A stretch of 64,000 nt of DNA, from the NCBI GenBank assembly GCA_027972325.1, contig JAPMOS010000015.1:261501-325500 (forward strand), read 5' to 3'. The position numbers and the translations under genes were made by a program. Below, in pieces: positions 88 through 60,266 of the stretch. Source of the DNA: Paratrimastix pyriformis. Lineage: Eukaryota > Preaxostyla > Paratrimastigidae. The stretch's first letter is position 1, and each line of letters begins with the position of its first letter. The notes beneath the pieces were generated by a model. The model saw only the letters and a program-made list of their open reading frames with translations, searched no databases and was not told the origin of the DNA.

Positions 88-3000
88 TGGCCACTGCGCA
101 TCGTGCGAGGCTTCTATTTCCTGTTGAGCTGGATTCTCTTTGTTCCGGCCTTTGGGATCTTCTTGGACGTCGTCGACTGTACCTACCGTCCCGGAGGTGT
201 TGTCACGCACGATCTCTTCCCCACGGTGGCCTGCTGGGCGTTGCCGCACGCCGTCCCCTCGGCGCTGTCCCTGCTGCTGATCCTCGTCTTCCTGGTCTTC
301 GCGGCTGGGAATGCCCTCTTGTCTGTCTCGCATGCAGCACGCCACGCCATGCCACGCCATGCCCCGTCTCGTCACGCCATGCCTGCCTGCCCTGCCCACC
401 AGCCACACACCCGCCACGCGCCCGCGCCCGCCATGCCCCGCCATGCCCCGCCCGCCCGCCATGCCCGACATTCTCCTCTCACCTATTCCACCAGGGCCCG
501 TAAAAGGGAAACAAAGAGAGAAAAGAAATCACTTAAAATACCCGAACCAGCAGCTTCTCTCTCATATTCCGGGAACTGAGCCACCGGGCCCGTAAAAAGG
601 GAACACAAGAAAGACCGAAATCACCCAAAACACAAAAGGGGAAAACAAAAGGGAGGGTCTCTCTCTCATATTCCGGAAAAACGAGCCACCAGGGCCCGTA
701 AAAGGGGAACAAAGAGAGGAAAGTAATTCTATCTCTCTTCTTTCAAGGGCATCTCTGTTCTGTTCCCTCCTATCCCATCTATCTCGTTTCCTGACCACCT
801 GTTTTTTCCCGTTTCGGCGCAGCGTTTTCCCCTCTGCCGGGTTCGACAGCCGTTCCCGGGGCCGATTCGACCTACTGGTGGTCCGTCTCCCCTCCCCAAC
901 GTCGGCCCCCTACGCTGCTCAATCGCTGATGCCTCTTCCTCTCCGCCCCTCCGCCCTGTCCTCCGCACCCACCGTCGTCGCCCAGCTGCTGGCCAAGTGC
1001 CTGATCGTGTGCGCGGAGCGTGTGCTGACGGTGCACACGGTCCTCCGTGTCGTGCTCATCATGGCCTCGACGGGTGTCGTCCTGGTGATGCTCCTCTGGA
1101 TGCTGCCCTACCACACCCGCCTCGCCAATATGATGGTCAGCCGTCCCATGTCATGCCAATGCCATGCCACGTCACACTCCATGTCGAGTCCTGACCCGGA
1201 CTCGGAGGGCAGGGTTGGATTGTTGTGCCGGGTGTGGTCGTGGCTCTCATCCGCACGCAGGCGCGCACCTTTTCGCCATCTTTCTTTCTTTCACGCGCTC
1301 CCTTGGCGGCGGGCTTGTGGGCGGGCAGTTCATGGGCGAGTACTGGGTGTGTTTCCTGGCCGCCCTGGAGTGGAGCATCCTCCACCTGGCCCTGCCCCAG
1401 TACGCCGATGGCTGGGTGCCCTTTGTCATCCTCATGGGCGCCTGTCTGGTGACGACCCCCTTGGCTGTCTGGGTCATGTGTCCGTCCCAGCCCTCAGCCC
1501 TCAGCTCTCAACCCTCAGCTCTCAACCCTCAGCTCTCAACCCTCAGCCCCCCTCGCTTGAGGGTGAGAAGGGCGGCCCGAGCAGCCCGGGCTTTCATTTC
1601 TCTTCTAATAATCGCTTTCACTTGCGCCGGGCTGCAGACATCCGGTACACGGCCACCCTTGCCCTCAATCGGGCCGATGTGCGCCGTTTGCTGAGCACCA
1701 TCCAGCCCGCGGTAACCCCCAACACACCCGGACCGCGTATTCTCTGTCCGCCCCAGCTCCTCCCTGCCTTGCTTGCTGCCTGCCAGATCAGCCACATCAG
1801 GATGTCCGCCCTGGCTCGTCCATCGTGCCCTCTTCCTTGACATGATCGCCGCTCCCTCATCGCATTCGTGCTTTCGCCATACTGCCCGGCATCGCCAACC
1901 ACCACCCACCACCCACCGCGTCCGCCTGTGCAGCTCCGCCGATCACCCCAACGGCGGGCGAGGGGACCACGGCTTCTTCGGCTGCGCTGGAGGACGGCGC
2001 CCAGCTTCTCGGAGGCGACCTGCCCTCAGCCGACGCGGTGGTGGCTCGGTGCCGGTGGAGCCTCAGCGTCGAGTGGGCGACCCGCTTCCTGCGCTGGAAG
2101 GAGACCGTCGGGGACGCGCGCCTGCAGGCTTTGGCCAAGGCCATCTACGCCAAGGGCACCACCAAGTTCCCCGAGTCGCACGGGCTGCTCCTCAACTACG
2201 CAGAGTTCCTCTACGTCCGCCCGCTTCCTGCCATGCCCACCTGCCCCACCTGCCCCTCTTGCGGCACATACTATCATCCATGGACTCCTCCGACGTGCAT
2301 CTCCTATTCCAAGATATCTGCCGCTCTATGCTCATTGCGCGACCACTCCCGTCTTCTTTTTCCCTGCTCGCCCCCTTCTCCATTTCTTGCGCCGTTTTCC
2401 CCGCTGCCTTGCCACAGACCATACAGCGCAACTCGTCATCGGCGATGTCGCTCATCCGGCGTGTGACGGCCTTGCCCGGGACAGCCCTCGATACTCGATT
2501 CAGCATATACGCCGCTGAGCGGAAGTTCGAATCGGTCCGTCCGCCGTCAGCCCCTCCCGCCCCTCCCGCCCTCCTCCCTCCCTCCCCTCCTCCTCCCTCT
2601 CTCTCCTCCTCCTCCTCCTCCCCTCCCTCCTCATCTCTCGACTCTTGTCTGCCCCCACCCACCACCCAGCGGCGTGATGCCCATCCCGCCGGGCCAAGAG
2701 TCTGTCCCGTCCCGCCGTCCCCTTCCCCGACCCACCTTGTCTGCCTCCACCACGATTTCATCTTTTGCTGGTCGCGCCCATCCGCCGCCTTGTTCCACAC
2801 CCCCAGACCGGCTGGCCCGGGTGTGGGCCTTCCTGATGCGGCCTCACTTGGACGTCCAGTCGCTGCCCCCGCTGCTCGACTCGGCCGTGGCACACGCCAA
2901 CACGGCCCTGGAAGCCTACTCGTCTCTGATCAAGTCCTTCCCCACCAACGTCCCCCTTCTCAGGTCCCGATCCCCTCAGCTGTCGATGACGATAGCCCGC

Positions 3001-4836: not shown

Positions 4837-4882
<46 letters not shown>

Positions 4883-9758: not shown

Positions 9759-10853
9759 TCAATGGCATTCCCACCTATACACGGTATTCGTCGAGGCTTC
9801 GGTGATGTACAGCATATTCGGCTGTTCCCTGGAGAGCAGCGAAAGGCAGACGGTGATGAGGTCGCGCGGTGGGGGGGGCAGGCGGTCCAGACCGGGAGAA
9901 GGCGAGGCCGGTCACCTCGGGGGCGCCCATCTGGATCCGCTCGAGCTGCTCGCCCTGGGGGGTGAGCACCGTGACGTACCCCACGGCGCTGCTGTGGGTG
10001 CCGGCGAAGTCGTAGTTGGCCACGTAGAGGTTGCCCGTCGTGGGCTGGACGGCGACGGCCATGGGGCCCATGCCCCCCGAGAACTGGTGGAAGACCGAGA
10101 AGTGGAAGACCCCCGTCGGCCGCTGCACGGCCCGGAGGATGCGGTTTTGCATCAGCTCGCAAACGTACCTGCGTGGGTGGGTGAGGGGTGGGCCGGTGGG
10201 AGTGAGGATGACCCACGGCGAGCGGGTGGGTGCGCAGACAGGGTGCTGTCGTCCGGGGATAGCGCAATCCCGGTGGGGCAGGCCAGCGTGTCCAGCATGA
10301 GGGGCTGCAGCAGTTGTCCTGGCGGAGTCAAATGAAACGTGAGGTGGCGAGGGTTGGTCGCAAACCATCAGGCGACACGCAAAAGACGGAGCCCCTGGGG
10401 TCCCGAAGACCCGTCTCCCCCACGGGGCCCGAGTCTGTGAAGTAGAGCGAACCCAACCGGTCGAAGCAGCAGGAGTGGGGGCCCTTAAAGCTGCGACCCT
10501 CGTAGTCACGAATGAGGGGAGTGATTTCTTCCTCTTGCTGGAGAACTGGGAGGGGATCAAGGAGAGCGGGAAAGCGCTGAACAGACGAATGGCATGGTGA
10601 TTGAAATCCCCCAGGTACATTTCGCCCTCGTTGTTAAACCGGACGCACGAAGGAGCGCCGCCCACCGCAAAAGACTGGGATTTCTTGTCGAAAATCCGGA
10701 AGATTTCGCCAGTCCCCGTCGACACAATGTGGAGGGTGTCTTTCAGCTATCGTCGACAATGTGAATGAGTGATTTATTTGATGTTTTGGAAATTCGGACA
10801 TCGAAGACAGGTGAGCAGATCTGGCTTCCCAAGCCACTTGCCACAACTTGCAT
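9759..10853 (-). CDS. SMP-30/gluconolactonase/LRE-like six-bladed beta-propeller protein
   Basis: The six-exon model is solved by reading frame: complement(9759-9828, 9893-10168, 10240-10318, 10366-10545, 10587-10746, 10800-10853), 819 nt, 272 residues. The N-terminus is MQVVASGLGSQICSPVFD. Blade motifs follow: LHIVSTGTGEIFRI, GGAPSCVRFNNEGEMYLGDF, GSLYFTDSGPVGETGL, ACPTGIALSPDDSTLYVCEL, GMGPMAVAVQPTTGNLYVAN and LYITEASTNTVYRWE. These are the repeated G-x-A/V-hydrophobic plus LYV-type strands of the SMP-30/strictosidine-synthase superfamily. Members are metal-dependent lactonases or lyases, and substrate cannot be inferred here. There is no signal peptide. The gene lies in tandem behind ABCF3, with 147 bp between the ABCF3 stop and this start. 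All five donors start GTC or GTT (GTCCG, GTCTG, GTTTG, GTCTG, GTCTG). Confidence 0.92.
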
Positions 10854-11000
10854 TTCAAAAAAAGCGAAAAGCCGACTGCTCCACTGGGCATAGACCCGCT
10901 GCCGGAAAGCGGAAACATGGCATCCCTTCTTTCATCGTCCCCCAAGGTCCACCCAAAAACGCGAATAAAAAAATCGATGTTCAATCTCGCTGGGCAAAGT

Positions 11001-11449
11001 TTACTGCACGTGGAGCTGGCGGAGAATGCGTGCCTTGTACTCCTCGAAAGTGCCCGTGAAGAGGGTCACCGACTTGCCCTCGCATACCCACAGTTCGTCG
11101 CACACTGAGGTGATCAGGTGCTGGTCGTGACTAGAAAAAAGGAGGTCAATGAGTTGGGTGAAACCCGTCATCCGAACGACAGACGTCACAATGAGGTAGG
11201 CGCCCTGGAAGGACTTCAGGGCGGCAATGAGGGCATCACGGGCGGCCACATCGAGATGGTTGGTGGGCTCATCAAGCAGCACCAGGTGAGGGTTCTTGTT
11301 CAGGGTCAGGGCGGCCAGGGCCACACGCATACGCTCACCACCCGAGAGCGACCCCAGGTACTGTGCGCCCTGCGTGCCACTGGAGGGACGGGCGAGACGG
11401 AGGTGAGGTGGGTGAGGAAGGCCCGGGCGGCACGGGGACAGGGGACCAG

Positions 11450-11487
<38 letters not shown>

Positions 11488-14207
11488 CCCAGGAGAGGGA
11501 GACGGACGTGATACCGAAGCTGCCCAGGTGCTTGCGAATCTTCTCGACGCCCCGCAGGCCGGTGAACTCGGGGATGGAGACCACCATGCCTTGCAGGTAC
11601 GAGATGGGGTCCAGCGAGGGGTCCATCTGCCCGGCACCATCACCACCACCACCACCAAACCGCCACAGATCGAGTGAGTGAGGGGGTGCCCGCGGGCGGT
11701 GGGTGTATTGGGGCATCGCATTGGGGCATCGCATTGGGGGCGGACCTCATCGACGTGGTGCTGACTGAAGCGGACGATGTTGAGCGAGCTGCGGCGCATC
11801 ATCTCACCGGCCGAGGCCTCGAGCTCGCCGGACATGATCTTCAGCAGGGTTGACTTGCCCGCCCCGTTGCGGCCCACGCAGGCCACCTTGGACCGGAGGC
11901 CCAGCTGGCAGGTGACGTGCTCGAGGACGGGCTTGCCGACCGTGTAGGCGAAGGAGACGTCGCGCATCTCGAGGAAGGGGCTCTTGATCTGGCTGATCAG
12001 GTCCGGGAAGCGGAAGGTGACGGCGTGCTCGTCGTCGGGCACCTTCTGGATGATCTCCATCTTGGCCAGGGTCTTCATGCGCGACTGGGCCATCTTGGCC
12101 TTCTTCTCGGACTTGGCCCGGTTGATGTCGATGAACTGCTGGATGTGCTTGATCTGCATCTGCTGGCTCTCGTAGGCCCGCTGGTCACGCTTGATCTGCT
12201 CCTCACGCTGGCCCACGAAGTAGTCGTAGTTGCCTGGCGGCCGTGCAGGGGCGGGGAAGGACGAGGGCAATGAGACACCAGGACAGGCAGACAGCACAGC
12301 CAGCCGGGGGCAGGGGCGGACGGGAGGGGAGCGGGATGAGGGCAGGGGCGGGGGGGGCGGGCGCGGACCGTGGTAGAACTGGAGCTTCTCGTTGTTGTAG
12401 TGGACGATGTCCGTGCAGACCCCGTTGAGGAAGTAGCGGTCGTGGGAGACCACGATGAGGCACTTCTGGTAGCGGCGCAGGTAGGACTCGAGCCACAGGG
12501 CCCCGTAGATGTCCAGATGGTTGGTGGGCTCATCCAGCAGCAGGAAGTTGGGCTCGCGGAAGAGCGCCCGGGCAAGCGAGATACGCATACGCCAGCCACC
12601 TGGCCAGGGCGGAGGGGGGCGGGGCCGTAGCCACATGGTGAGACCAGGGGCAGGGGTTGGGGGAGGCAAGTGCGGGTGGTGGGAGGGGGACAGGTCCGGA
12701 CCGGAGAAGCAGTTGCTGGGCATGTCCTGCTCCTCCTGGGAGAAGCCGAAGCCGGAGAGGATCATCCGGGCGCGGGCCTCCATCTGGTCGAGGGAGATCT
12801 CCTCCATGCGGGCGTACACGTCGGCCAGCATCTCGTGGGTGGGCTGCTCGGCAGCCTTGGGGGCGGCCGCCGCGGGCTCGGCCCCACCGCACCCCAGCAG
12901 GCCGGCCTCCTCGTCGTTGCAGAGGAGGCGCCGCTCGGCGTCGAGCAGGTTGGCGCGCTCCTTGTCGGCGCCCAGGACCCACTCGAGGGCCGAGGCCGGG
13001 TTGCCGGGCACCTCCTGCTCGATGTACAGGATGTCCGGGTTGCCGGCAAGCTGGAAGGCGCCCTTGGCCAGGTGCCGCAGCAGGGTCGACTTGCCCACAC
13101 CTGTCGCCGCCACCCCCACCCCACCCCACCCCATGGCCGCCCCACGCCATTGCCGCCCAGCGGGGGTCAGCCAGACGCCAGCCACTCCGACCTCCCCGAC
13201 ACTGCCACTGCAACCGCCACCGACACCGCAGCAACACGCCATCCTCCTGCTGGTGGGCGGGTCGCGGACCGTTGCGACCGATGATACCGTACTTGCGGGC
13301 CCGCTGGAAGTGGAACGAGGCGTTCGAGAGCAGCTGCCGGCCGCCGAAGGACAGGCTGAAGTCGGTCACACGAATTTCCTGTGGGCACCACCCGGAGAGG
13401 TGGTGGGTGGGGTTGGGGTTGGGAGAACACAGAAACGAGTGGTCAGTCGCATGGACGCGGAGTGGGGGGGGGGGGGGGGGAGGGGAGGGGGAGGAGGCAG
13501 ACATCGGGTGCACTGCAGTCTGCGCCAGGGGCCTTGAGAATGACGGCATCGCTCATCAGGTCGGGGTTGTATGGCCGGCGGCCCGTGTTGGTGCCCGGCT
13601 CGACGAACTTCTGGTCGCCCTCGTCAGGCTCCTGTGCCCCCCCGGTAGAACAGGCACAGGCAAGGACGGTTGAGAACAGAAATGCCAAAAACGTTGTGTG
13701 GCGTGGCTGTGCAGCGAGTGAAGGGGTGAAGGGTCCACCAACCTTCGAATCCTTCTTCTTCTTGTGAGGCTGCAGCATCGTCTTTTTCCCTGCATCCAGC
13801 GCCTTCTGAACTTGAGCCAGACGCTGGTCGGTGGTCTTGCGCTGAGAGGCAGAGATCTTCGCACGCTGCCGTTCGAGTTGCTCCTGAGCGGACGGGGAAG
13901 ACGAGGAGAACTGGACAAGGTGGTCGGCGATGCGCTGGCACAGGTCCCGAGACTCATCTTCGGTCGCGGTCAGACCCCAGGCTTGGAACGAGGGACCAAT
14001 GCTGGAAAACAGGGCCGAACCATTCTCGCCCAGTGGTTCACTGGCGCAGAAACCGCACAGGTAGGAAGTGAACAGATCATCAACGGCCCTCAGGCGTTCT
14101 CCAAACGAATCTTCCAACAAAGTGCGAACAGATTGCTCAATGTTGGCTTGAGAAGGTTGAGGAACGGCTGCCGTGGCCAGCGCGACAGCGGTGGAACCAG
14201 ACTCCAT
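11001..14207 (-). CDS. ABCF3: ABC-F ATPase, ABCF3/GCN20 type
   Basis: The start is ATG at 14207 (MESGSTAVALATAAVPQP) and the end is ILRQLHVQ with stop at 11001. The N-terminal 100 residues (RAVDDLFTSYLCGF, SIGPSFQAWG, DLCQRIADHL) resemble the GCN1-binding head of ABCF3/GCN20. ABC1 follows: VTDFSLSFGGRQLLSNASF, Walker A GRNG-intron-GVGKSTLL, then GWRMRISLARALF and Walker B NFLLLDEPTNHLD with the H-loop VVSHDRYFLN. A coiled linker (YFVGQREEQIKRDQ and on) leads to ABC2 with Walker A GRNGAGKSTLLK, signature LSGGERMRVALA, Walker B LVLLDEPTNHLD and H-loop SSHDQHLI. Two ABC cassettes without membrane segments define ABC-F. The family acts on ribosomes and in GCN1/GCN2 translational stress control. 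At least seven introns are present, one with a sense-strand G run (11454-11486). It is head-to-head with eIF3h, 58 bp between start codons. Confidence 0.93.
11454..11486 (-). repeat. Long G run (sense strand) in ABCF3 intron
   Basis: About 32 consecutive C on the plus strand, so a G run in the ABCF3 transcript, inside the intron between the two parts of ABC2. Most other long homopolymers in the window are C in the sense strand. Confidence 0.9.
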
Positions 14208-14265: not shown

Positions 14266-15946
14266 ATGACCGATCAGAAGCCGAAACTTTCTTTCCGCGC
14301 CAAGGTGCTGGGTGAGGTTGCGAAGGATCTGGCCCCCCCTCAGCCGGAAGAGCAGATTGAAGTCGTGGAGATTGATGCTCTGGTCTGCACTAGAGGCACA
14401 CGACCCCTTCTAAACCTCTCCACACTGACTTTGTCCCTTGTCCCACCTGATTCTCTTTCGGAAAATCCGACCAGGTGGTCATGAAAATCGTGAAGCATGC
14501 CACCGAACAGCTCCCCTCTGCCGCCAACGGGAATCTTTGTGGCCTTGACTTTGGGAAACGTCTCGAGGTTACCAATTGTTTCCCCTTCCTCAAGACCGGT
14601 CAGTGGCACCTCTTCACCAAAAAAAGTCCTCACCCAAACATCACCTAGCCTCTGATGAGAGCGATGAGAAGGTCAACGAGTACCAGGTGGAGATGATGAA
14701 GCATCTCCGGAAGGTAAATGTTGATCACAACGGTGTCGGGTGGTACCAATCCGTGATCAACGACAACCTCATCCCCACGCAATTCGATTTCCAAGATAAC
14801 CTGGGGAAGTCCATTGTTCTGATCTATGATCCTCTTCGGAGCAGCCAAGTCTGTGTGTGCCGGCTCGTCTTTTTCTCTGCTCACCCCAATCCCAATCCGG
14901 TGCCGGTATTGGCTTCCACCACCCCAGGGTCCTCTCTCCCTGAAGGCCTACCGCCTCACCCCCGAATTCCTCGCCCACTATCGCTCCCTCCGTGGCTCCT
15001 CTGTGACCGCCGAGAAGTCTGTTGAACCTTCTTCCCTCCTCGTGCCCGGATGCCAATACCACCCCCCCCCCCCCCCCCCCCCAGCCTGACCAAGGCCCGC
15101 CTCCGGCCCCAGGATGTCCTGGAGGAGATCCCCGTGGTGCTGAAGTCCTCGACGGGCCTGACGCCTGCCCTGCTGGCCGAGCTGCAGGACAAGCCCGAGC
15201 TGGACTGCGAGTTCGACCTGCTCGACCTGAACCCCGACGCGTTCTTCGAGAAGCACCTCGAGTTCCTCACCGAGTGCGTCGACGAGCTCTCCACCGAGCA
15301 GACCAAGGCCCACGCCTACCACCGCACCCTGGCCAAGTACCAGTCGCTGGTGGCCAACTTCTACGCTAAGAAGCGCCAGGAGGCCCGCGAGCAGGGCGAG
15401 ACCAACTTCCGCGAGGAGCAGGTGCCGCACCCCTTCAACAAGCCCCTCGAGCCCAACCTCCTGCCCTCCCTCACGGTCCGTCACCCCCCGCAACACCCGC
15501 CCCCGCCATCCCTCCCCCCTGTCGCGATGACGTCCTCCTCACTCCCCTGCCTCTTCTCTTTGGGTCCCGTGGCGCGGATGACACCAACAGCTCAGGACGC
15601 AGATCGCCCACTACGCCGAGGGCCTCAGCCGGGCCGCCTCGCAGCAGATGGGCCAGCTGTACATGCTGGGCGGCCTCCACAAGAACATCCACCAGGCCTC
15701 AGCCTCCACCTCGGCCTACCCGGCCCCCGCCAAGAAGATCGTCCGTGCCCCGTGCCCCGTGCCCCTCGCCCCTGCCCGCACACACACCGTTCGCCCGCTC
15801 ACGCCGCGCCCGGTTCCTCCCTGCAGGGCCCCTTCGGGGACGAGGAAGAGGACGACGCCGAGGAGGCCACCACCGCCCAGCGGGCCGTCCTCGACGGGGG
15901 CCCAGCCGTCATGGAGTCCCTTTTGCGGGCTGCCGTCCCCAAGTGA
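14266..15946 (+). CDS. EIF3H: Translation initiation factor eIF3 subunit h (MPN domain)
   Basis: Seven exons are fixed by reading frame: 14266-14382, 14475-14598, 14649-14848, 14928-15016, 15085-15475, 15603-15740, 15827-15946; 392 residues. The MPN region starts at VEIDALVVMKIVKHATEQL and continues with GLDFGKRLEVTNCFPF, EMMKHLRKVNVDHNGVGWYQS and LIYDPLRSSQGPLSLKAYRLTP. It lacks the JAMM zinc motif (NVDHNGVGWYQS replaces HxHx-type ligands), as expected for eIF3h. The C-terminal helical part includes EEIPVVLKSS, FEKHLEFLTECVDELSTEQ and MGQLYMLGGLHKN, and the tail is acidic (DEEEDDAEEA). Cytosolic subunit of eIF3. The six introns are 50-127 bp with donors GTCTG, GTCAG, GTCTG, GTCTG, GTCCG, GTCCG. 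Codon GC rises strongly from first to last exon. Confidence 0.97.
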
Positions 15947-16464: not shown

Positions 16465-16692
16465 CTACTGGGTCTGCTGGCCCTGGGCCTGGGCGGCCAT
16501 CTGGAGGACGCTGTGCCGGGCCCGCTGCATGACGGCCAGGATGCCCGCAAACTGGATCTTCTCCGAGAGCCCGTACGAGGCGTTGTACCTGCCCAGACAC
16601 CGAGGAGAGCGGGAGGGAGGGGAGGGGAGGGAGGGGTCAGTGGTGCCGTGGGGGGGTAGCGACCGGCTGGGAGAGCGCCTCCATCCCCCTGG

Positions 16693-16752
<60 letters not shown>

Positions 16753-18217
16753 CCGACGGACGCGATGGTGGAGAGCTGGTCGAGGACGTCGCACTTGACC
16801 ATGGGGGCCAGGTCGACGTGCAGCAGCCGGGCGTGGATCTCCGTCGCCACGTCCTGCAGGGCCAGCCCCTTGGCCGTCTTCAGCTCCCAGCACACTGGCC
16901 GCCCACCACCACCACACGAGAAAAGGAACACTCAGCCCCAGGGCAGGATGACCCCATCCCAGTTCCAGAGGGAGGCGGGGACAGGCGGACGGTGGAAGGC
17001 GCGGGTGAAGTCCTCGTTGAGCATCCACTCGAGGAGCCGGGTGATGTCCTCCGGGTGCGGCTTTCCCGTCGTCTGGTAGACCATGTCGGCCGTCACCTCC
17101 CCCCGCTCGCCCGACTGCAGGGCCGTCGACTGGACGCAGTGTGGTGGTGGGTGGGGCATGTCAGCGCTGATGGGGGGGGGGGGGGGGGGGGTGTCTGCGC
17201 CACCCTGAGGTTACAGCACGTGTGTGTGGTGGGGGCGGACCTGGAGGACGTTGAGGCACTTGCGCATATCGCCCTCGGCCAGCGAGACGATTGTGGAGAT
17301 GGCCTCGGGGGTGATGGCGATGCTGGCACACAGGCACAGACGGGCAAGGGGGGGCGCGAGTCGCCGGGGTGCAGAGACGGGGAGATGGGAATGGTGAACA
17401 CAACAATGGGACAGCCTCACCACCCCCGGGGCTGAGCCACACCCTCTCACCCCCACGGACTGCTCGGCCTGGGCGATCTGGTGCATGCGGCCCTCGACGG
17501 CCTTGTGGTCGAGGGGCCCAAAGCGGAACTTGGTGCACCGTGACTGCAGGGCGGGGATGATCTTGCCCACGTAGTTGCAGATCAGGCAGAACCGCGCGTT
17601 GTGCGAGCACTTCTCGATCACTGGTGGGGGGCGAAGAAGACCATGCGGCTGGAGAGTTGCTCCGGTGGGGGCAGCAGACCTCGCCTCAGCGCAAACTGGG
17701 CAGGGTGTGTCATTGCATCAGCCTCGTCCAGAATGACCAACTTGAACCCCTTGACCCCCAGTGCTCTGGTCGTGGCAAAGGTTTTCACCTGTTCCCGAAC
17801 GACATCGATACCGCGTTCATCGGAAGCATTCAGCTCCAGGACCATCGGACCAAACTTGTCGCCGTAAAGTTTCTTGGCGCATGCGAGAATGGTAGATGTC
17901 TTACCAGTACCAGGAGGTCCGTAGAGGAGAAGGTGGGGGAGGCGATTTTGGTCGATCAGCTTTGTGACTGCGCAAAGAAGATCACATAAAACGGTGGAAA
18001 AGATCTAGTACGGACTAGTTCCGATGATATCCTCGTGTGAAATGAGATCAGAGAGCTCTTTGGGACGGTATTTTTCAACGAATGGGAGAGTGGAGGAGCC
18101 TGAGGCAGGGGGGGGAGGGACAGTTTTTGGTGTACTTTTTGGAGGCTGCGGGGCGGGCGCCTGGTCCGCGGGAACGGGCTGAACGACAGGGGCTGGCTCG
18201 GGCTTTTCAATTTGCAT
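16465..18217 (-). CDS. RFC5: Replication factor C small subunit, RFC5 (yeast Rfc3) type
   Basis: The start is ATG at 18217 ([12 protein letters not shown]); exon 1 runs to 18016 and exon 2 begins at 17967, the frame proving a 48 bp intron with donor GTCCG. A Pro-rich leader of about 45 residues precedes [19 protein letters not shown]. Then come Walker [35 protein letters not shown], Walker [32 protein letters not shown] and sensor-type RFRFGPLD. The C-terminal collar contains [57 protein letters not shown] and a tail ending QAQGQQTQ. The DEAD box and sequence match RFC5 rather than RFC2/RFC4. It is a nuclear AAA+ clamp-loader subunit loading PCNA. A (GGCA)n tract sits in one intron. Head-to-head with the RING/B-box gene, 54 bp between starts. 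Confidence 0.95.
16686..16752. repeat. (GGCA)n tetranucleotide repeat
   Basis: About 16 perfect GGCA copies inside an RFC5 intron (CCTG in the sense strand). Confidence 0.95.
17172..17190. repeat. Homopolymer run in RFC5 intron
   Basis: About 18 G on the plus strand, hence a C run in the RFC5 sense strand. Confidence 0.85.
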
Positions 18218-22747: not shown

Positions 22748-22802
22748 CACTCCTCCCTCCCTCCCTCCCTCCCGCCTTGCCTTGTCTTGCCTCTTTTCCA
22801 CG

Positions 22803-23616: not shown

Positions 23617-23662
<46 letters not shown>

Positions 23663-29900: not shown

Positions 29901-30137
29901 GGGAGGCTGTGGGGGTGGAGGAGGCGCTGGGGGAGGAGGAGGCTGGGGTTGGAAGGGAAGCTGCGGCTGTTGAAAAGGCATTTGGTACATTTGGGGCTGA
30001 AGAAATGCTGGCGGAAAGGCGCCAACAAGAGGGCCCGTGAAGGAGGAGAGCCCCAATAATGGGGGAGGTTGGGGTTGACATGTGGGAGGGTAGCTTGGCG
30101 GAATGGAGACACCTTGCGGGAAAAGTACAGGCCCCAT
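23929..30137 (-). CDS. Giant Pro/Gln/Ala/Ser-rich low-complexity protein
   Basis: Starts ATG 30137 (MGPVLFPQGVSIPPSYPPTC). Exon 1 runs to about 28961, where the donor GTCCG is followed by an acceptor near 28825, continuing in a second frame (WATRVGQPHVRSASAFGWTG). A third in-frame stretch runs from about 27500 to 24090 and a last exon ends GLGYTSPMAQLGVR with TGA at 23929. The total is about 1,950 residues. It is dominated by Pro, Ala and Ser, with a His run ([12 protein letters not shown] near 28520), acidic EEEAEEEAAAMARIRRELLE and about 35 PQ units. The only folded-looking parts are ELLEGL near 29110, TGAEFLQRLAGLLFQVQAHF near 27960 and the C-terminal helices ELQAFREALEAKQADL, AEYDRFFED and IEPIVRLLQGLG. 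No family recognised; it resembles disordered transcription or condensate scaffolds. The junction between the second and third stretches (27480-27560) is not resolved. Confidence 0.6.
26614..26724 (-). repeat. (GGCTGG)n coding repeat, PQ repeat
   Basis: About 18 perfect copies of GGGGCT/GGCTGG, encoding alternating Pro-Gln in the Pro/Gln-rich protein. Degenerate PQ and QQ units flank it to 26830. Confidence 0.95.
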
Positions 30138-45184: not shown

Positions 45185-46419
45185 ATGAAAGGAGACTATA
45201 TCTCGGATATTACAGAAGTGCCGAATCTCGCACGTCCCGCTGCTGCTCATCCGGCACCGCCTCGACCTTCTTTCACTGAGGTGCAAGATCACGAAGAAAG
45301 AAGAATGTCAGTGCGACACTCGGGCACAACCAATATCTTCTGGCTTTAGGTACGGGCGAAACCTCTTGCGTATGAATGCCTGGGATCGACACCAGGTGTT
45401 TGTCAATGATTACCTTAGATCGACAGGGAAGCCGATCCAACAATATATTCCGCCCGTCGTCAAAACGGATGGCGATGTCCTTCGCGAACAGTACAGGTCT
45501 TTACAACATATCACTTGATTTGGTACGCCGCAAGAACAGATTCATTCGTTCTGAGGGAGACGATGCCCCGGGAACTTGGGAGACCGAGCTCGCCCGCAAG
45601 TACTACGAGAAGCTCTTTCGTGAATACTGTATCGCGGACATGACCCACTGGAAGGAGGTCTCGGTGCATCTTCCTCTTCGGCAACCCCCGATCTCCCCCC
45701 CGCACCGCAGAACAAGATCGGGATGCGCTGGCGGACCGAGGAGGAGGTGCTGCTGGGGAAGGGGCAGTTCGTCTGTGGGAACAAGGCCTGCTCGTCCAGC
45801 GAGGGCCTCTCCAGTTACGAGGTCTGTGTGGATCTGACCAGGGCGATACCAACCCATCCCCCGCCAGGTGCACTTCAAGTACATGGAGCAGCACGTCCGG
45901 AAGCAGGCCCTGGTCAAGCTGCGCCTGTGCCCCCACTGCGGCAACAAGCTGTCCCCGTCGATCCGCAAGCGACACAAACAGCAGCAGCAGGCGGCCGCCG
46001 GGGTGCCTCCGTCGCCCTCCACCCCGGCCGTCACCCCGAGCCCGTCACCCGCCCTGGGGCGCACCACCTTCCCGGCGGGCGGCCCGGCGGCCCGGCTGTC
46101 CGAGGGGACGCCCCTCTCGTCGCTCGGAACGCCACTACAGACGCCCCGCAAGCACGCCCGAGGAGACGGGGCGCCGGCGGGGGCCGAGGGCGAGGAGGAG
46201 GAGCCTCGGAAGGCCCCCCGCGAGGAGGCCGACGGGGCGACCGCCACCCAGCCCGCCGGGGCCCAGGGCGAGGGCGAGGGCCAGCCGCCCGTGCAGATCG
46301 ACCTGACCAGCGCACGCCCCGAGGGCAGTGAGATCTGGTCGGCCCCGCTGCCCGCACAACACAGGCGCGAAGACGATTTCGAGCAGTACTTCCAGGGTCC
46401 GTCGTGTGACATCCCATAA
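45185..46419 (+). CDS. FRA10AC1: FRA10AC1 family protein
   Basis: Five exons fixed by frame: 45185-45306, 45350-45496, 45540-45657, 45711-45821, 45868-46419; 349 residues. Family hallmarks are continuous: LLRMNAWDRHQVFVNDYL, KTDGDVLREQYRFIRSEG, TWETELARKYYEKLFREYCI, ADMTHWKENKIGMRWRTEEE, LLGKGQFVCGNKAC, ALVKLRLCPHCGNKL and, at the end, EIWSAPLPAQ and DDFEQYFQ. Two CxxC-like pairs (CGNKAC, CPHC) likely bind zinc. FRA10AC1 is a nuclear protein associated with the catalytic spliceosome. Donors GTCAG, GTCTT, GTCTC, GTCTG. A GTCCG at 46397 right after EQYFQ could be another donor leading to a short last exon, so the 3' end is uncertain. Confidence 0.94.
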
Positions 46420-52298: not shown

Positions 52299-52581
52299 TT
52301 TGTGAAAAACTGGCGGGACATGCGATGAAGCGAGGTCGTGAGTGGAGACGCTCAGAGGAAGTGCCGGCGTCACTCGACAATCGAGCGAAGATGATGGCTC
52401 ATTCGGGAGCTCAGATACGATTTCGAAAACTGTTGACCAGCTTTGTGGATGAAGCTGCGCTTTGTTCGTGGTTCCGAGCCGTTGGGTTTCCGTCCGGAGG
52501 TCCCAACAAGTGCTTGAAAGAAAAAGACGGAATTAGTCAACCGCACCGAGGCAATATCTACACTTTTCTGCTCGAGGAAGA
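52299..52581. other. Divergent intergenic region before the MORN gene
   Basis: 283 bp of moderate-GC sequence between divergent starts. An open frame from ATG 52325 runs through it but cannot be spliced in frame to the MORN exons, so it is treated as leader or promoter sequence. Confidence 0.4.
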
Positions 52582-55500
52582 ATGCAGAGCCCGGATCCGA
52601 AAGTCCCCTCTCCAGGGGCTTCGCCGAAGTCCCGAATTTCTTTCGCTACGGTTCGCTTTTTTTTATGCGCGCATTCTTTTGACACGACCACCACACTCTG
52701 CCCTCTGTTCTTGATCTTTGGTCATAGGCTGCCCATCTGGTTGATGCCGTGACGTCCGATGGTAAAATGAACGGAAGTGGCACCATGACTTACTCGAATG
52801 GTGATCGCTACAGCGGCGAATGGTACAGCGGGAAAAGGTTCCATATTTTTTCGCCCTCTTTCTCTGTGTCCGAATCGCGCCGTTCCTTTCCATAGGTGGG
52901 GTAAGGGCACATGCATTTGCGCGAATGGTGACCGGTCTGTCGTCCGACTCTCCAACCATCCCCACCCATGTTTTCATTAGCTATGAAGGCGACTGGTGCC
53001 GTGACATGCGCAACTACAAAGGTGTTTGCCATTATGCAAACGGAGACGTTTACGAGGGCGACTGGATGGATGACAAGTCTGTTTCCGTCCGATTCCGCCT
53101 GTCTGAACCGCGGCCCGTTCCACCACCACCCCGCCAGGCGTCACGGCCAGGGTAAGCTCACCACCGCCACCGGCGATCAGTACGAGGGGGAGTTCCAGTA
53201 CGACACGCAGCAAGGTACCGGTTCCGTGGTCACGCATACCGGGGAGAAGTACACCGGCCAGTGGTCTGTCCAACCCCCGCGTCCCTCGCCAGACTCACCC
53301 CGCCACCACGCAGGATGGCCGGGAAATGGCACGGCCAGGGCACGTGCGAGTCTCCCAACGGGGACGTGTACGAGGGCAAGTGGAAGGACGGCCTCCGCCA
53401 CGGGACGGGCGTCCTGGTCTCGGCCAACGGCGACCGGTATGAGGGCAAGTGGCGCAACGACCAGAAGCACGGCCCGGGGCTGCTGCGGTTCAAGGAGGGC
53501 ACCATCTACGACGGCGAGTTCCAGAACGGCGTCCGGCACGGCAAGGGCAAGCAGACCCCGCCCCCGGACAAGCCCGGCGAGACCTACGAGGGTCTCTGGG
53601 CCAACGACCACCGGTCCGCCACCCGCCGAAGGGCAAGCGGTTGGGTGGGCGGCTGGGTGGGCGGCTGGGTGGGCGGCTGGGTGGGCGGCTGGGTGGGCGG
53701 CTGGGTGGGCGGCTGGGCGGTTGGGTGGGATGGGATGGGGAGTGGCGGCCAAAGGGGGGCAACCCGGGGCCGGGCAATCCGATTCTTGGCGGTGATGTGA
53801 CCCCCCCCCCCTACCTGCCCCAGGAACGGCATGGGTGTGCTGCTCTTCCCCAACGGGGACCGGTACGAGGGCTCCTTCGTGGACGGGCGCATGGAGGGGG
53901 CCGGCATCATGACCTACGCCGACGGGGGCGAGTACCGCGGCGACTGGGTCAACGGCCTCAAGCAGGGTCCGCCCCCAGCCCCGTGCCGCGGGGATGGTGC
54001 GATGACGGGGCCGTGCGCTCGAGCTCACCACGTCTTACCCTCCTTCCCCTCGCAGGCCAGGGGACCATGACCTACCTGGGCGGGGACAAGTACGAGGGCG
54101 AGTGGCTCATGGGGCGCCGCCACGGCCAGGGCACCCTCACCCGCACCGACGGCCGCACCTACACCGGCAGCTGGGTCAACGACGAGCAGGACGGCGAGGG
54201 TCCGCCACCCGCCCGCCCAGCCCCACCCGCCCCGCCCGCCCGCCCGCCACCCCCGCGCCTGACTTTGCCTCATTGTCTTTGCCAATTGTTGTACCTCTGT
54301 CCCTCTGCCCCTCTGTCCCTCCTTCCCGGGCAGGCGTGGCGACGGACGCCAGCGGGAACATGTTCCAGGGCCGCTTCCACCGGGGCAAGCGGGAGGGCGC
54401 CGGGCTGATCGTCTCCAAGGACGGCTCCGAGTTCCGCGGCCACTTCGCCGACGACCGCGAGGAGGGCGAGGGCCTGCTGACCTACCCCACGGGCGACACC
54501 TACGAGGGCACCTGGCGGGGCGGCATCCAGCAGGGCCGCGGCAAGATCGTCCGGGCGGGCGAGATCATGAACGTCCGCGGGCGCCCCTTGGCGGGCAGCG
54601 GGTGTGGCCCATCGCCACCCCCTGAGACCGCCGCTCACGTGGAATGACCTGGGGGCTGCCTGTGCTGCCTTTGTGTCTGTGCCCGTGTCTGTGTCTGTGT
54701 CTGTGCCCGTGTCTGTGCCCGTGTCTGTGCCCGTGTCTGTGCCCGTGTCTGTGTCTGTGTCTGTGTCTGTGCCCGTGTCTGTGTCTGTGCCCGCAGGTCT
54801 TCTGGATCTCGGACAAGATCGGCAAGATCGACTACCCCAACGGGGACGCCTACGAGGGCGAGTTCAACTTCGTCTACCGGGAGGGCAAGGGGGTCATGCA
54901 CTACAAGAACGGCGACGTCTACGAGGGCGAGTTCCACAAGGACATCCGCCAGGGCTACGGGGCCATCACCTACCAGGCGCCCCTGCAGGACCCCTTCACG
55001 GGCGACCTGATCACCCGCTACGAGGGCACCTGGGCCAACGACGTCTACCACGGCACCGGCACGGCCACCCTCAAGGACGGCTCCTTCTCGGGGGTCCGCG
55101 CCACGCCTTCCACTTCCCCTCCTCCTCCTCCTCCCCCCCCCACGCCTTCCCCCCTTTTTGCACCGACGTGCTCACCGGGACGCTCGCCCCTGCCCATGGC
55201 TGCGCGCGCTCCCCCTGGCCTTGGCAGGACTGGGACAAGGGCCACCGGCGGGGCCAGGGCAAGCGGATCTACTCGGACTGCACATACGAGGGCCACTTCG
55301 AGGACGTCCGCAAGGGGACCGGCCTCCTGCGGTTCGCCAACGGGATGGCCTACGAGGGGGCCTTCGCGGGCGACCGGATGAACGGCAAGGGCAAGCTGGC
55401 CTTCCCCAACGGGGACACATACACGGGCGACTTCCTCGACGTCCGTCGCCCCCCCGCCCACATCCCTGCTGCCTCCAGACCCGGATGCGGTCGTGCCCCT

Positions 55501-58500
55501 GTTGTTGGCCCTTCTCCTCCTCCCGGCTGACGATTGCATTGTCGCTGCCCTCCCCACACACCCACACAGGACCAGCGCACGGGCTTCGGCGTGCTGATCT
55601 GCGTCTCGGGCGACAAGTACGAGGGCCAGTGGCACGAGGGCGCCCAGCACGGATCCGGTCCGCCCGCCGCCCCTCCTCCTCCTCCTCCTCATCCTCCTCC
55701 TCCTCATCCTCCTCATCCTCCTCATCCTCATCCTCATCCTCCTCATCCTCCTCATCCTCCTCATCCTCCTCATCCTCCTTCTCGACTGCCGCCTCCGGCC
55801 CCGCCACTCACCAGCCTCCCCTTTCCCTCTCCCCGGCCCCCCCGACGGCGCGCAGGGACCTGCACGTACGCCAACCAGGACGTGTACGAGGGCGAGTGGG
55901 TCGACGGCAAGCGTGACGGGCGCGGCTTCTGCGTGTACGCCAACAAGGACAAGTACGAGGGCTTCTGGCACCGCGACCAGCCCGACGGGGAGGGCGTCTG
56001 CGCCTACGCCTCGGGCGAGAAGTACGACGGCTTCTGGGAGGCCGGCAAGCGGCACGGCAAGGGCAACTGCGTGTGGCCCGACCAGACAAGCTACCAGGGC
56101 GACTGGCGCAACGACAGGAGACACGGTCCGCCCCGCCTCCCCTCCCCCTCTTCCCCCCCCCCCCCCCCCCCCCCCCCCCGGGCACTGCCGGGCATGCGTT
56201 TCATCGGTGCGGCTCTCGGGTGGGCTGGGTTGGGTGGGGGTGGGATGGTGCTGGTGCAGGGACGGGGACGTGTGTGTACCCGTCGGGGAACATCTACACG
56301 GGCGAGTGGGCCGAGGACCTGCGCAAGGGCAAGGGCACGTACATCTTCTACGACCCGCCCTCGACCGACGAGTACCTCGTCCCCCCGGGCTCCGACAGTC
56401 CGCCCCCCATCCCGTCCCTTTTTTTTTTTTTTGGTTAAACCACTCTTATTGGAAGAAATCTCCAAACAAGAGGGTACAGTGGCTTCAAGCCCAAAGGGCA
56501 AAGAAGATACTGTGTACCCGCAGACAGCCAAAAAGTAACACAAAGAACCGATGACCAGAACAAAGAAACAAAGTCCGAGTAAGAAAAATCTCAAAGAACA
56601 ATCACATAACAAACCAGGGGGGAGAACGACCCATACCCCACCGGTTATAAGTGCGCCACACATAAATCCGACGACACCCGTACTTCAGCAACCAATTCCC
56701 CATCCCAGCCAAACGCGAGATCGGTGCAGGGGCGGGCTTCTGGGGCTTCGGCTTAGGAGCGGAAGCTTCCACTGCCTCACGGGCCTCGCGGGCCTCCCGA
56801 GCAGCGACTTCTCCTCGCGTCATAGCAAAGCAGCCTTCCTCATTCTTTGCACCTCCTTCTTCTGCTTTGGACATGGCTGGAGGGGCGGTGCCTTGAGGCT
56901 GGGTGGAGACGACTTAGGCTCGAAAGCGGCACAGAGGCCGCTTTCTCCTCCACAGGCGGTTGTGGTGCTTTGCGACTCGGAATTACATTGCTCATCTTTC
57001 TCTTCACTCCCAGCGCTGAAGCAGGAAGCAGAGCCGATTGAGGTGGAGGTGCGGGAGTGGACCCGCTGATGATGCATTCCTCCTCAGACTCAGTGGCGTC
57101 CGGGTCACATTCAGACTCAGTGGCATCCGGGTCACACTCAGACTCAGTGGTGGAGTCTTCATGCGCCCCGGACCAGGACCACCTCCAAGTTGACGTTCAG
57201 CTGATTGGGCAATGAGAACAGCAATCGCATTCACTAAAATGGCACCCTGTTCCAAAATAGCATCACGAGTAGCACCATAACAACCATCTTGGGTCGTGCA
57301 CAGGCCACGAGGCAAACGAGCAGTGAAGAATGATTCAATATACTCAGGTGTCGGACGAGCATGATTCAAAAGAGTGGCACCAATAACAAGAGCATGCCGC
57401 ATCGAATTAGTAACGTCAAAGCCAATTTTGGCAAATTGCGGCGGAGGAGATCTTGCATTCTCGTAAGGATCCGCAAACAAATGTTCAATCATTTCCAAAC
57501 ATGATTCATTGGCCACAAACTGGCTTGAATCAATAATCGGAACATCCTTGGGAGGCATCAAATGCCAACCCAACGGAAGAAGATTGGAAAATTGAGAGTG
57601 GCTATAACTGCGGGGGGCCCATCCCGTCCCTCCCATCCCGTCCCTCCCATCCCCATGCCCCGCTGGGGAGTCTTGCGTCTGCTGGGCGGGCCGATGCTGA
57701 CCCGGGATGCTGGTGGTGGTGGTGGTGGTGGTGGTGGTGGTGGTGGTGGTGGTGGTGGTGGTGGTGGTGGTGGTGGTGGTGGTGGTGGCGGTGGCGGTGG
57801 CGGTGGCGGTGGCGGTGGCGGTGGCGGTGGCGGTGGCGGTGGCGGTGCAGTGGCGGCCCCGACGGGGTCCCCGTCGAACAAGTACGAGGGCGACTTCGAC
57901 CAGGACATGCGCCAGGGCCAGGGCGAGTGCGTCTACTCGAACGGGGACCGCTACGTGGGCGCCTGGGCGGCCGACATGCGCAACGGGGAGGGCACCATGT
58001 ACTACGCCACCGGCGAGAAGTACTCCGGCCAGTGGAAGAGCGACGAGCGGTCCGCGGCCCCCACAGCCCCCGACCTCCCCGCCCGAGCTGCCCCAGCCCC
58101 CCCCTCCGGGCCGCCCCCCGTCTGATCCGTGCCTTCCGGGTTGCTGGATGGGTGGGTGGGTGGGTGGCGGGTGGGTGGCTGCAGGACGGGCTTCGGGTTC
58201 ATGGTGGACGCCGAGCAGAACGAGTACGAGGGCCAGTGGGACGCGGGCCGCCGGACGGGCCAGGGCACCTGCCGCTACTGCACGGGGGACACGTACACGG
58301 GCCAGTGGCGCGACGACATGCGTGACGGCCAGGGCACATGCGAGTACGCCACGGGCGACCGCTACGAGGGCCAGTGGGTCGAGGACATGCGCGAGGGCCA
58401 CGGGTCGGCCTGCCGCCCCCGCCTGCCCTGCCACCACATCGCATGCCATCCCCACACACCCCACACCCCACATGCCTAATGCCGCTTCCATCATCACCCC

Positions 58501-60266
58501 CGGCCCTCATCCGTCCGCATTCCCTCCGGCCCGCGTGTGGCTGCCTGTCTGCTGCTGCTGCTGCTGCTGCTGGCCGTGGGCAGGGTCTGCACGCACGCCA
58601 ACGGGGACCGGTACGAGGGCGACTGGCACGGGGACGTCCGCAGCGGGCGGGGCACCATGCAGTACGCCAACGGGGACTCGTACATGGGCGACTGGGTCGA
58701 CGACCTGCCCGACGGCCACGGGCTCATCGTCTACGCCAACGGGGACCGCTACGAGGGCTCCTTCGCGGCCGGCTGCAGGAACGACCACGGCCTGCTCACC
58801 CTCAGCAACGGCATGAAGTTCGACGGTCCGCACCCCACCCCAGGCACCACCCCAGGCACCACCCCGCCTGCTGGGGGAATGACCGGCCTCACGCTCGCCC
58901 CGACCCCCTCTCGAACCGCCCGCAGGGATGTGGCTGCGGGACCTGCAGCACGGCGACGGGCTGATCGTCTTCCCGGACGGGGCCTCCTACCGGGGCACAT
59001 GGCGCGACGGCAAGATCGCCGACAAGGGCACGTTCACCTCCCCCACCGGTCCGCCCTCCTCCACACACCCTCGCCCCCGCCCAATCCTCCTCTCGGCCAC
59101 CGCCGCCCCGCCCGCCCAGGGACCCAGGTCTTGATGATGATGTCGGCTGTGTGGTGGCTGGGGGGCGGGCGGTGGTGGGGGGCAGGGGGCATGTCCTACG
59201 AGGTGCAGTGGCAGCTCAATGAGCGGGTGGGGGTCGCCACCTACGCGGACGGCAGCCGGTACGAGGGCGAGTTCGACAACTGCATGCGCAACGGCCGGGG
59301 CACCTTCACCAGCGCCTCGGGGGAGCGATACGCGGGCGACTGGGAAAACGACGCGCGCCACGGCCAGGGCAGCTGCACCTACGCCAACGGGGACGTCTAC
59401 GTGGGCAGCTGGGACCACGACATGCGCACGGGCGAGGGCACCATGACCTACGCCAGCGGGGACCTCTACCAGGGCGGCTGGGCGGACAACCTGCGCTCGG
59501 GCAAGGGCACCTTCACCGCCTCGGACGGCCAGAAGTACGCCGGCGACTGGGACCAGGACAACATCCGCGGCCGGGGCATCGTCACCGAGACCAACGGGGA
59601 CGTCTACGAGGGCGACTTCGTCGACGGCAACCGGACGGGCGCCGGTCGGTGTCGGTTCGCCAACGGGGACAAGTACGAGGGTCCCTGGGTCAACGGGGCC
59701 CGCGAGGGGCCCAACGGCACCATGGAGTACGCCACGGGCGAGTGCTACGTGGGCGCCTGGAAGAACGACGTCCGCGAGGGATTCGGCATGTGCCGCTACC
59801 CCAACGGTCCGCCCCTTGATGACCCCTTGATGACCCCTTGATGACCCCTTGATGACCCCTTGATGACCCCTTGATGACCCCTTGATGACCCCTTGATGAC
59901 CCCTTGATGACCCCTTGATGACCCCTGCCGTGCTCACAGACTGACTGACCGTGTGGGTCTCGGGTTGTTGTTGATGATGGCTGGCGGGCAGGGGACGTGT
60001 ACGAGGGCGAGTGGCTCAACGACTGCCGCCACGGGCGGGGCCGCCTCAAGTACGCCAACGGGGAGATCTACGAGGGCGGCTGGCGGGCCAACAAGCGCTT
60101 CGGCAAAGGCCGCTGCACCTACCCCAACGGCAACGCCTACGAGGTCCGTGCCGCGCCTCCCCCACTGCCCACCCCACCCCACTGCCCCCCGCCGGAGGGA
60201 GGCATCTGTCTCACGCGGGTGGCCGTCTGTGGTGTGGTTCATCCACAGGGCGAGTGGACCGGCTGA
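52582..60266 (+). CDS. MORN-repeat protein with about 52 MORN motifs
   Basis: The tentative start, ATG 52582 (MQSPDPK), splices in phase to [20 protein letters not shown]. From there the whole protein is MORN repeats of about 23 residues (consensus GxGxxxYxxGDxYEGxWxxG), such as [42 protein letters not shown] and [20 protein letters not shown] count about 52 Y/F-x-G-x-W/F cores. It ends NAYEGEWTG at TGA 60266, with no catalytic domain (no SET, kinase or GEF). MORN proteins are structural or lipid-associated scaffolds in cilia, membrane junctions and cell cortex. About 20 introns, nearly all starting GTCCG and falling at repeat edges; the one at 56399-57847 is about 1.45 kb because of a retroposed insertion and a GGT/GGC microsatellite. 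Length about 1,250 residues. Confidence 0.9.
53640..53725 (+). repeat. GGCGGCTGGGTG 12-mer minisatellite in intron
   Basis: About seven copies of GGGCGGCTGGGT in the MORN-gene intron after the donor at 53613. Confidence 0.93.
54670..54795 (+). repeat. GTGTCTGTGCCC repeat in intron
   Basis: Alternating TGTGTC and TGTGCCCG units, about 20 hexamers, filling a MORN-gene intron up to the acceptor before [10 protein letters not shown]. Confidence 0.93.
55674..55795 (+). repeat. CCTCAT/CCTCCT repeat in intron
   Basis: About 20 CCTCAT and CCTCCT units, a pyrimidine-rich microsatellite in a MORN-gene intron. Confidence 0.9.
56156..56179 (+). repeat. Poly-C run in MORN intron
   Basis: About 24 consecutive C in the intron that follows the exon ending in RNDRRHG. 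Confidence 0.9.
56420..57617 (-). mobile_element. Poly(A)-tailed retroposed insertion with 14 bp target-site duplication
   Basis: A block of markedly lower GC inside one MORN intron. The plus strand opens with about 13 T (56420-56432), i.e. a poly(A) tail in minus orientation, with AATAAG about 14 nt before it. The same 14 bases, CCCATCCCGTCCCT, occur on both sides (56406-56419 and 57618-57631), a target-site duplication of the TPRT kind. The element is antisense to the MORN gene and starts about 20 bp after the GTCCG donor. It has open frames on the minus strand: 57558-57004 (184 residues, [20 protein letters not shown]) and 56874-56602 (90 residues, Ala/Glu/Pro-rich then basic). No reverse transcriptase, no terminal repeats. 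Either a non-autonomous LINE-mobilised element or a retrocopy of a host mRNA. The intact tail and duplication suggest it is young. Confidence 0.8.
57713..57847 (+). repeat. (GGT)n/(GGC GGT)n microsatellite
   Basis: About 23 GGT followed by about 11 GGCGGT units, ending at the acceptor CAG before [16 protein letters not shown]. It reads as polyglycine in one frame, but the splice phase places it in the intron. Confidence 0.9.
59816..59927 (+). repeat. CCCCTTGATGA 11-mer minisatellite
   Basis: About ten perfect copies of CCCCTTGATGA in the last-but-one MORN-gene intron, just after the donor GTCCG. Confidence 0.95.

Follow-up and report, generated by a model that had tools for sequence, protein, structure and literature searches.

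Changed donor sites and a complementary U1 small nuclear RNA 5' end in Paratrimastix pyriformis

The 5' end of the U1 small nuclear RNA (snRNA) is regarded as among the most conserved RNA segments of eukaryotes. Switches from A to U at position +4 of the intron donor (5' splice site) are described in Saccharomycotina, and in the same study of 240 fungal-centred genomes the U1 letters ACUUACC were invariant in all 236 genomes with a U1 candidate (227 of 230 Saccharomycotina and 9 of 10 outgroups) (Parker et al. 2023, PMC10581693). A change of U1 position 5 to A was named there as a conceivable compensation and was not found (PMC10581693). Here we describe introns that begin GTCYG, together with U1 genes whose 5' end is complementary to them, in Paratrimastix pyriformis (Metamonada, Preaxostyla); the stretch at the centre of the analysis, referred to as the window, comprises the 64,000 nucleotides at G000:C57:261501-325500 (contig JAPMOS010000015.1). 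The species is a free-living anaerobe. Its published genome comprises 56,627,582 bp in 633 scaffolds at 60.94% GC, with a gene prediction that relied on RNA sequencing (RNA-seq) intron hints (PMC10703272); in that paper, 'intron' has two mentions, 'splic' one and 'snRNA' none. No report of GTCYG donors or of an altered U1 was found in the literature searched by title and start of abstract, subscription papers, preprints and supplements lying outside that scope.

Donor motif of the introns

Introns were modelled in 264 kilobases (kb) of the 56-megabase assembly (56,060,509 bases in 495 contigs), made up of the window and a second sample of 200 kb from another contig (C441:200001-400000). The gene finder was a two-strand hidden Markov model that knew only a codon model, a GT intron start and an AG intron end; donor letters beyond GT were not supplied, and the model trained itself over eight rounds. 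The GT and AG ends were assumed in the gene models and are supported by homology and by a transcript-derived protein. In the first pass, in which no donor motif had yet been learned, 348 introns were predicted, with C at +3 in 259, G at +5 in 241, GTCYG in 195 and GTRAG in 2. On reversed sequence the same finder gave GTCYG in 8 of 146 introns; every occurrence of GT in the real sequence counted, 5.9% (1570/26391) continue as GTCYG. After eight rounds there were 375 introns (+3 C in 319, G in 36, T in 20 and A in 0; +5 G in 301). Training begun from a GTRAGT-biased motif arrived at the same motif (378 introns; GTCCG 168, GTCTG 85). With no dinucleotide requirement, GTCCG was the top pentamer at predicted exon ends in the first pass (37 of 428, runner-up 7), when only 67 of the 428 ends started with GT; later rounds of this unconstrained expectation-maximisation were captured by ATC/CAT microsatellites of C441 and were unusable, the first pass alone being informative. 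Raw pentamer counts were set aside as not diagnostic, since GTGAG and GTCAG (both 1.47-fold the Markov expectation) exceed GTCTG (1.37-fold) and GTCCG (1.32-fold).

GTCYG donors are confirmed in P. pyriformis. The GTRAGT-like consensus of U2-type introns is not what these donors follow, GTRAG being present in 3 of the 375 (GTAAG 0, GTGAG 3) against GTCYG in 249 (GTCCG 166, GTCTG 83); from the 264 kb we infer that the motif extends genome-wide. In the window alone, 76 of 105 modelled introns began GTCYG and none began GTAAG or GTGAG (+3 C in 92, G in 9, T in 4 and A in 0; +5 G in 85), in agreement with the first-pass annotation of the window, which had read its introns as beginning GTCYG instead of GTRAGT. 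Position -3 of the acceptor was C in 335 of the 375 modelled introns, and intron interiors were C-rich, with strong strand asymmetry (41.5% C, 15.4% G). Long low-complexity or Pro/Ala/Ser-rich predicted proteins of high GC occupy window positions 23929-30137, 47242-52298 and 60787-64000, the last model having in-frame stops, and such doubtful models may add false donors to the count. Two near-identical multi-exon models lie about 20 kb apart in C441 (207546-209548 and 227592-229716), and both start MKATTIYFLVSILWAVASALD.

Donors of five genes, ABCF and RFC5 in the window and NMT, IDH and PSAT in C441, were fixed by residue-by-residue alignment with homologues of solved structure. All 18 junctions inside the alignments had C at +3 (GTCCG 12, GTCTG 5, GTCAC 1); a GTCTG junction at residue 1 of IDH lies outside the alignment and was excluded from the 18. 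The U1C gene (L042), the exons of which were joined by eye, uses GTTCC, GTCTG and GTTTG, hence +3 U is in use. Homology-fixed donors thereby total 21 in six genes, with C at +3 in 19 and U in 2. At two of the 18 junctions the model had set the donor wrongly or overlooked it; the homologue supplied the position, which was GTCYG in both cases. A GTRNG-like site was present within 18 nucleotides at 2 of the 18 modelled junctions, one at RFC5 residue 70, where a GTGAG is included, and the other at residue 152 of NMT.

In ABCF (ABC transporter F family member 3, reverse strand), an 18-residue insertion relative to PDB homologues was removed exactly by a 54-nucleotide intron, GTCTGTC...CTAG, which the gene finder had missed (11131..11184; donor GAC/GTCTGTCG, the slash separating exon and intron). 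The remaining ABCF introns, all fixed by homology, lie at 12600..12701 (CCG/GTCCGGAC, acceptor GGCCAG), 12234..12368 (ACG/GTCCGCGC), 11627..11745 (GAG/GTCCGCCC) and 11380..11507 (CAC/GTCCGTCT). Without the 54-nucleotide intron the model is identical to a published protein, P0122 ('putative ABC transporter F family member 3 [Paratrimastix pyriformis]'), over the C-terminal 520 of 531 residues, a stretch that takes in all five junctions; this agreement is supporting and not fully independent, because the published gene prediction used RNA-seq intron hints. The RFC5 introns, likewise on the reverse strand and fixed by homology, lie at 17621..17679 (GAG/GTCTGCTG), 17323..17460 (GCA/GTCCGTGG), 17130..17240 (CAG/GTCCGCCC), 16895..16990 (ACC/GTCCGCCT) and 16589..16761 (CGC/GTCCGTCG). 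For the second of these the model had placed a GTGTG donor, near which a GTGAG also lies, at a six-residue insertion relative to human RFC5, and GTCCGT, exactly 18 nucleotides upstream, removes the insertion. A 401-residue protein from transcriptome shotgun assembly entry GAFH01001654.1 is an exact substring of the spliced IDH model and spans three of its four junctions (GTCTG, GTCAC and GTCCG); the parent set, GAFH00000000, was obtained by 454 sequencing of the transcriptome of P. pyriformis, then named Trimastix pyriformis (PMC3596361).

U1 snRNA genes and their pairing with the donors

A covariance search of the assembly for the U1 gene, the check suggested in the first-pass annotation, gave eight loci with the Rfam U1 model (RF00003; 50.8-60.2 bits, E 3.7e-13 to 2.0e-10; match over positions 1-166). 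All eight start AUACAGACC, the canonical end being AUACUUACC, with AG at nucleotides 5-6 and an end complementary to GGUCUGU; the first 13 letters are the same in all of them (AUACAGACCUUGC; canonical counterpart AUACUUACCUG). A 41-nucleotide U1 core pattern, with up to three mismatches allowed, recovered the same eight loci with 0 mismatches each, and 0 places in a backward control. In all eight genes a CCCATAA element starts at -59 or -60. The element also stands upstream of the inspected U2 (3 of 10 hits), U5 (4 of 7) and U6 (4 of 4) genes and is apparently an snRNA promoter element of Paratrimastix (loci L001-L008, L009-L012, L045-L048 and L049-L051). The mean ungapped likeness of the U1 copies was 0.88 over the body, 0.42 from the element to the gene and 0.26 in the downstream flank; alike in body and unlike in flanks, they are therefore dispersed genes and not one local duplication. 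The pattern CCCATAA-N50-55-ATACNNACC has nine occurrences, in every one of which NN is AG and never TT or GG (backward control 0); eight of them are the U1 genes. The ninth, at C459:3534 with ATACAGACC, has no U1-core match and no Rfam match up to E 1 and looks like chance. A viral contig (L054) matches 17 letters of U1, but it lacks an Rfam match up to E 0.1 and resembles a phage polymerase gene. A U1 of canonical type did not turn up in the assembly, 41 of 992 first-look candidates having been scored. Rfam matches also place tRNA genes close upstream of two U1 genes (L003:1031-1115 and L004:1007-1079), and a tRNA-like 3' half is visible by eye upstream of one U6 gene (L010).

In the standard register, with U1 nucleotide 8 opposite +1 and nucleotide 3 opposite +6, G6, A5, C4 and A3 face +3 C, +4, +5 G and +6, respectively. 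When the 16 possible pairs of letters at nucleotides 5-6 were ranked by mean duplex energy with the 375 donors, AG was second (-6.13 kcal/mol), GG best (-9.17 kcal/mol) and the canonical UU 15th (-2.36 kcal/mol). U1 has moved strongly towards the donors, and not to the letter that best reads the common +4 C. The co-evolved donor code with a complementary U1 5' end proposed in the first-pass annotation is supported by this ranking and by the shared end of the eight genes; its guess at the U1 letters, CGGAC, was wrong at position 5, where the genes have A and not G. Because U1 thus reads CAGAC, the alternation of C and U at +4 is not explained by G-C and G-U pairing, as had been suggested, and the two letters occur there roughly in the proportion of the surrounding intron. 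Across four GC classes, U/(C+U) at +4 was 0.40, 0.33, 0.32 and 0.16, against 0.42, 0.35, 0.27 and 0.21 in the surrounding intron; at +6 it was 0.59, 0.46, 0.42 and 0.18, U being preferred in three of the four classes. Purines were depleted at +4 of GTCNG donors. Among 28 pairs of donor features in 266 GTCNG donors, and leaving aside two that are mutually exclusive by definition, only +6/+7 were dependent at p < 0.02 (p about 0.005), and the exon and intron sides showed no trade-off; compensation across the junction is therefore not suggested. The first seven letters of U1, AUACAGA, are identical to the AUACAGA that contains the U6 box, and GUCUGU is complementary at +3 to +6 to the ACAG of either RNA. 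U6 A43 stands opposite donor +4 (PMC10581693), and G44 would therefore face +3.

The remaining spliceosome and other genes of the window

U6 (96.7 bits), U5 (60.8 bits) and U2 (160.1 bits) all scored above their Rfam cut-offs and are canonical, U6 keeping ACAGAGA (AUACAGAGA), U5 its loop 1 (GCCUUUUAC) and U2 its branch-site region GUAGUA (GUGUAGUAUCUG). With GT...AG ends and standard functional U2, U5 and U6, the introns accord in these respects with the U2 (major) type. The U1C zinc-finger protein is present (joined-exon protein of L042 against human U1C, 7.5e-19). Its W28 was considered as a special adaptation and not accepted, plants having Y there, and a further zf-U1 hit (L041) resembles WBP4 and was not taken for U1C. 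Also present are a SNRNP27 homologue and a METTL16-type methylase homologue with an intact NPPF motif (G000:C332:38824-39682; L043, L044). Because PF05971 also matches in 5 of 14 prokaryote controls, we take the latter to be of METTL16 type from its NPPF region and general resemblance; beside modelled donors in which +4 A is rare (6%), it is a possible exception to the yeast association of METTL16 with +4 A.

Several other genes of the window, named in the first-pass annotation as SMP-30-like, eIF3h, FRA10AC1 and MORN, keep those identities by Pfam, as RFC5 does by PDB homology, and the MYND-like finger of a further gene is visible by eye in model 39671-41106. In eIF3h (forward strand), the intron at 14849..14927 was corrected by eye against homologue P0001 from GTGTG to GTCTG, 4 nucleotides upstream (CAA/GTCTGTGT). 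The modelled introns at 15017..15084 (GAA/GTCTGTTG) and 15476..15590 (ACG/GTCCGTCA) have junctions within the PF19445 eIF3h_C match (1.1e-30), and that at 15741..15826 (ATC/GTCCGTGC), beyond the Pfam match, comes from the model only. Moving the first FRA10AC1 donor (forward strand, 45658..45710, GAG/GTCTCGGT) from GTGCA to GTCTC, 6 nucleotides upstream, raised the PF09725 score from 98.4 to 104.0 bits; the modelled intron at 45822..45867 (GAG/GTCTGTGT) has its junction within the same match. Both modelled SMP-30-like introns, on the reverse strand at 10169..10239 (CCT/GTCTGCGC) and 9829..9892 (CCG/GTCTGGAC), have junctions within the PF08450 match (6.5e-14). For the MORN-repeat gene region (53264..60248, forward strand; PF02493 2.1e-45 in one model fragment), about 20 introns had been proposed, nearly all GTCCG, with GTCTG in the 5' introns. 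The predominance of GTCCG held (11 of the 13 modelled introns, with 1 GTCTG and 1 GTCGG); the number recovered was 13 and not 20, and GTCTG appeared at the 5' side in one intron only.

Explanations and known systems

It is very probable, in our judgement, that P. pyriformis has an ordinary U2-type spliceosome in which the donor-reading end of U1 changed from AUACUUACC to AUACAGACC, together with a shift of donors throughout the genome from GTRAG/GTATG to GTCYGY. G6 of U1 would pair with +3 C or wobble with the minority +3 U, A5 could pair with +4 U, C4 and A3 would pair with +5 G and +6 U, respectively, and +1, +2 and -1 would pair with U1 as usual; from their complementarity, these U1 RNAs would be expected to pair with the donors in the cell. 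The donors likely drifted first towards the unchanged U6 ACAGA box, with U1 following. A plausible order would be +4 U first, as in yeast and in the oxymonad Streblomastix, then +3 C, with U1 following at positions 5 and 6; the oxymonad +4 U would already suit U6 A43 better than U1 pseudouridine 5.

Several observations weigh against this explanation. Pairing with the donors would be stronger if U1 had G at position 5 (mean -9.17 versus -6.13 kcal/mol), and U is no more favoured over C at +4 than the composition of the introns accounts for, A5:U+4 pairing being invisible as selection. All eight U1 loci fall under the Rfam gathering score (best 60.2 versus 69.5 bits), and at a loose limit of E 10 the search also gave matches in 9 of the 14 prokaryote genomes that served as controls, always below the cut-off. 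A canonical U1 possibly lies in an assembly gap, and the eight genes would encode the U1 RNA of the cell, which is known here from its genes. Finally, 56 of the 375 modelled donors are without +3 C (36 G, 20 T); part of these are model errors, as three were on checking, but +3 U is genuine, as seen in the donors of U1C.

The possibility that GTCYG is an artefact of composition or of gene models, with true GTRAG donors nearby, gains some colour from the GC-rich genome and the C-rich introns, which make GTCC common (raw GTCCG being closer to Markov expectation than GTGAG), and from one RFC5 junction with GTGAG 8 nucleotides from the modelled donor. It is highly improbable, given the neutral first pass with its reversed control, the convergence of a canonical-biased start on GTCYG, the junctions fixed by homology and by a transcript-derived protein, and a U1 changed to match, and for the tested genes it is refuted. 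The U12-type donor consensus is RTATCCTT, read by U11. A weak U12 snRNA candidate (G000:C432:103343-103517, minus strand; 44.9 bits, E 2.8e-6) lies under the 53-bit cut-off, and P. pyriformis may have a minor spliceosome; that the introns described here belong to it is scarcely conceivable, however, as GTCYG is unlike RTATCCTT, forms the bulk of modelled introns and is matched by U1. Non-conventional introns of the euglenozoan kind, with non-GT-AG ends and no U1 pairing, were excluded, the GT-AG junctions being homology-fixed and U1 complementary.

In another reading, along lines put forward for Entamoeba, it would be mainly the U6 ACAGA box, or U1C and further proteins, that read the donors, and the altered U1 would be a drifting relic or serve other tasks. 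Entamoeba, with GUUUGU donors, reportedly lacks U1, and its donors have been suggested to be complementary to U6 (PMC6085484, PMC6018208, PMC13292270); U6 can moreover choose sites other than those bound by U1 (PMC11732430), and in P. pyriformis donor +3 to +6 are complementary to U6 ACAG and +4 does not tell C from U. We nevertheless think this unlikely, as all eight of the dispersed U1 genes have the same 5' end and promoter element although their flanks differ, the U1 change restores pairing (AG second of 16) and U1C is retained. Modification in RNA of U1 position 5 (and 3), or of U6 A43/A41, for example from A to inosine, would let +4 and +6 be C or U; in keeping with it, both positions are pyrimidines with purines depleted, +4 is indifferent to U or C, and both RNAs have A opposite +4 and +6. 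Weak discrimination at +4 may also mean that it contributes little, however, +6 mildly prefers U, and the METTL16-type methylase would predict N6-methyladenosine, not inosine, in U6, so that we rate modification as improbable.

The change of U1 together with the donors, which we favour, could be taken a step further, although we hold this extension tentatively and at somewhat less than an even chance. The U1 end may have converged on the U6 ACAGA box, so that the +3 to +6 code would be read identically by U1 and then by U6 and the usual mismatch between the two readers would be gone; U6 would be the evolutionary master, with U1 free to follow, and U1 A5 or U6 A43 might be inosine or otherwise non-discriminating. 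If true, such a non-discriminating A5 of U1 or A43 of U6 would explain the pyrimidine-only reading at +4. Apart from this extension, an intron-rich protist in which the U1 end and the donors changed together provides natural evidence, from both partners, for U1-donor co-evolution, and is a natural rewriting of a splice signal thought almost universal. It also opens a way to ask which of U1 and U6 dictates the donor code, since the two RNAs have the same four letters here. Gene prediction and splice scoring that presuppose GTRAGT should fail in P. pyriformis and may overlook lineages like it.

Among described systems, the oxymonad Streblomastix strix also belongs to Preaxostyla, and 20 of its 21 sampled introns are GT-AG; its donors, in contrast, are GUAUG (A, U and G at +3 to +5), and conserved U1 pairing was inferred by the authors from the 21 introns sampled (PMC1501061). 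The diplonemid S. specki likewise has a natural U1 gene with a non-canonical 5' end, a run of C, but there a canonical U1 coexists with it and both are reported to be comparably complementary to a canonical donor logo (PMC12621601). In P. pyriformis no canonical U1 was found among the candidates scored, and the logo has changed. Engineered U1 compensation is laboratory suppression at single sites, whereas many introns have changed naturally here. The likeness is that pairing with an altered donor is regained through an altered 5' end of U1, as in the adenovirus E1A suppression mentioned in PMC11732430. GUUUGU donors of Entamoeba histolytica share with those of P. pyriformis a pyrimidine at both +3 and +4, followed by G at +5 and U at +6, as well as complementarity to the U6 box, and U1 snRNA is reported as absent there (PMC6018208, PMC6085484, PMC13292270). 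On account of the Entamoeba donors, Archamoebae had been considered as the origin of the DNA, an idea given up when protein matches pointed to Paratrimastix. P. pyriformis, by contrast, has eight U1 genes with a matching 5' end. In Saccharomycotina, +3 reportedly stays a purine. A lineage-wide shift of donors towards complementarity with U6 ACAGA is common to Saccharomycotina and P. pyriformis, but in the former U1 is invariant in all candidates found and loss of METTL16 accompanies +4 U (PMC10581693). In P. pyriformis U1 has changed at positions 5 and 6, C stands at +3, and both a METTL16-type methylase and SNRNP27 are present.

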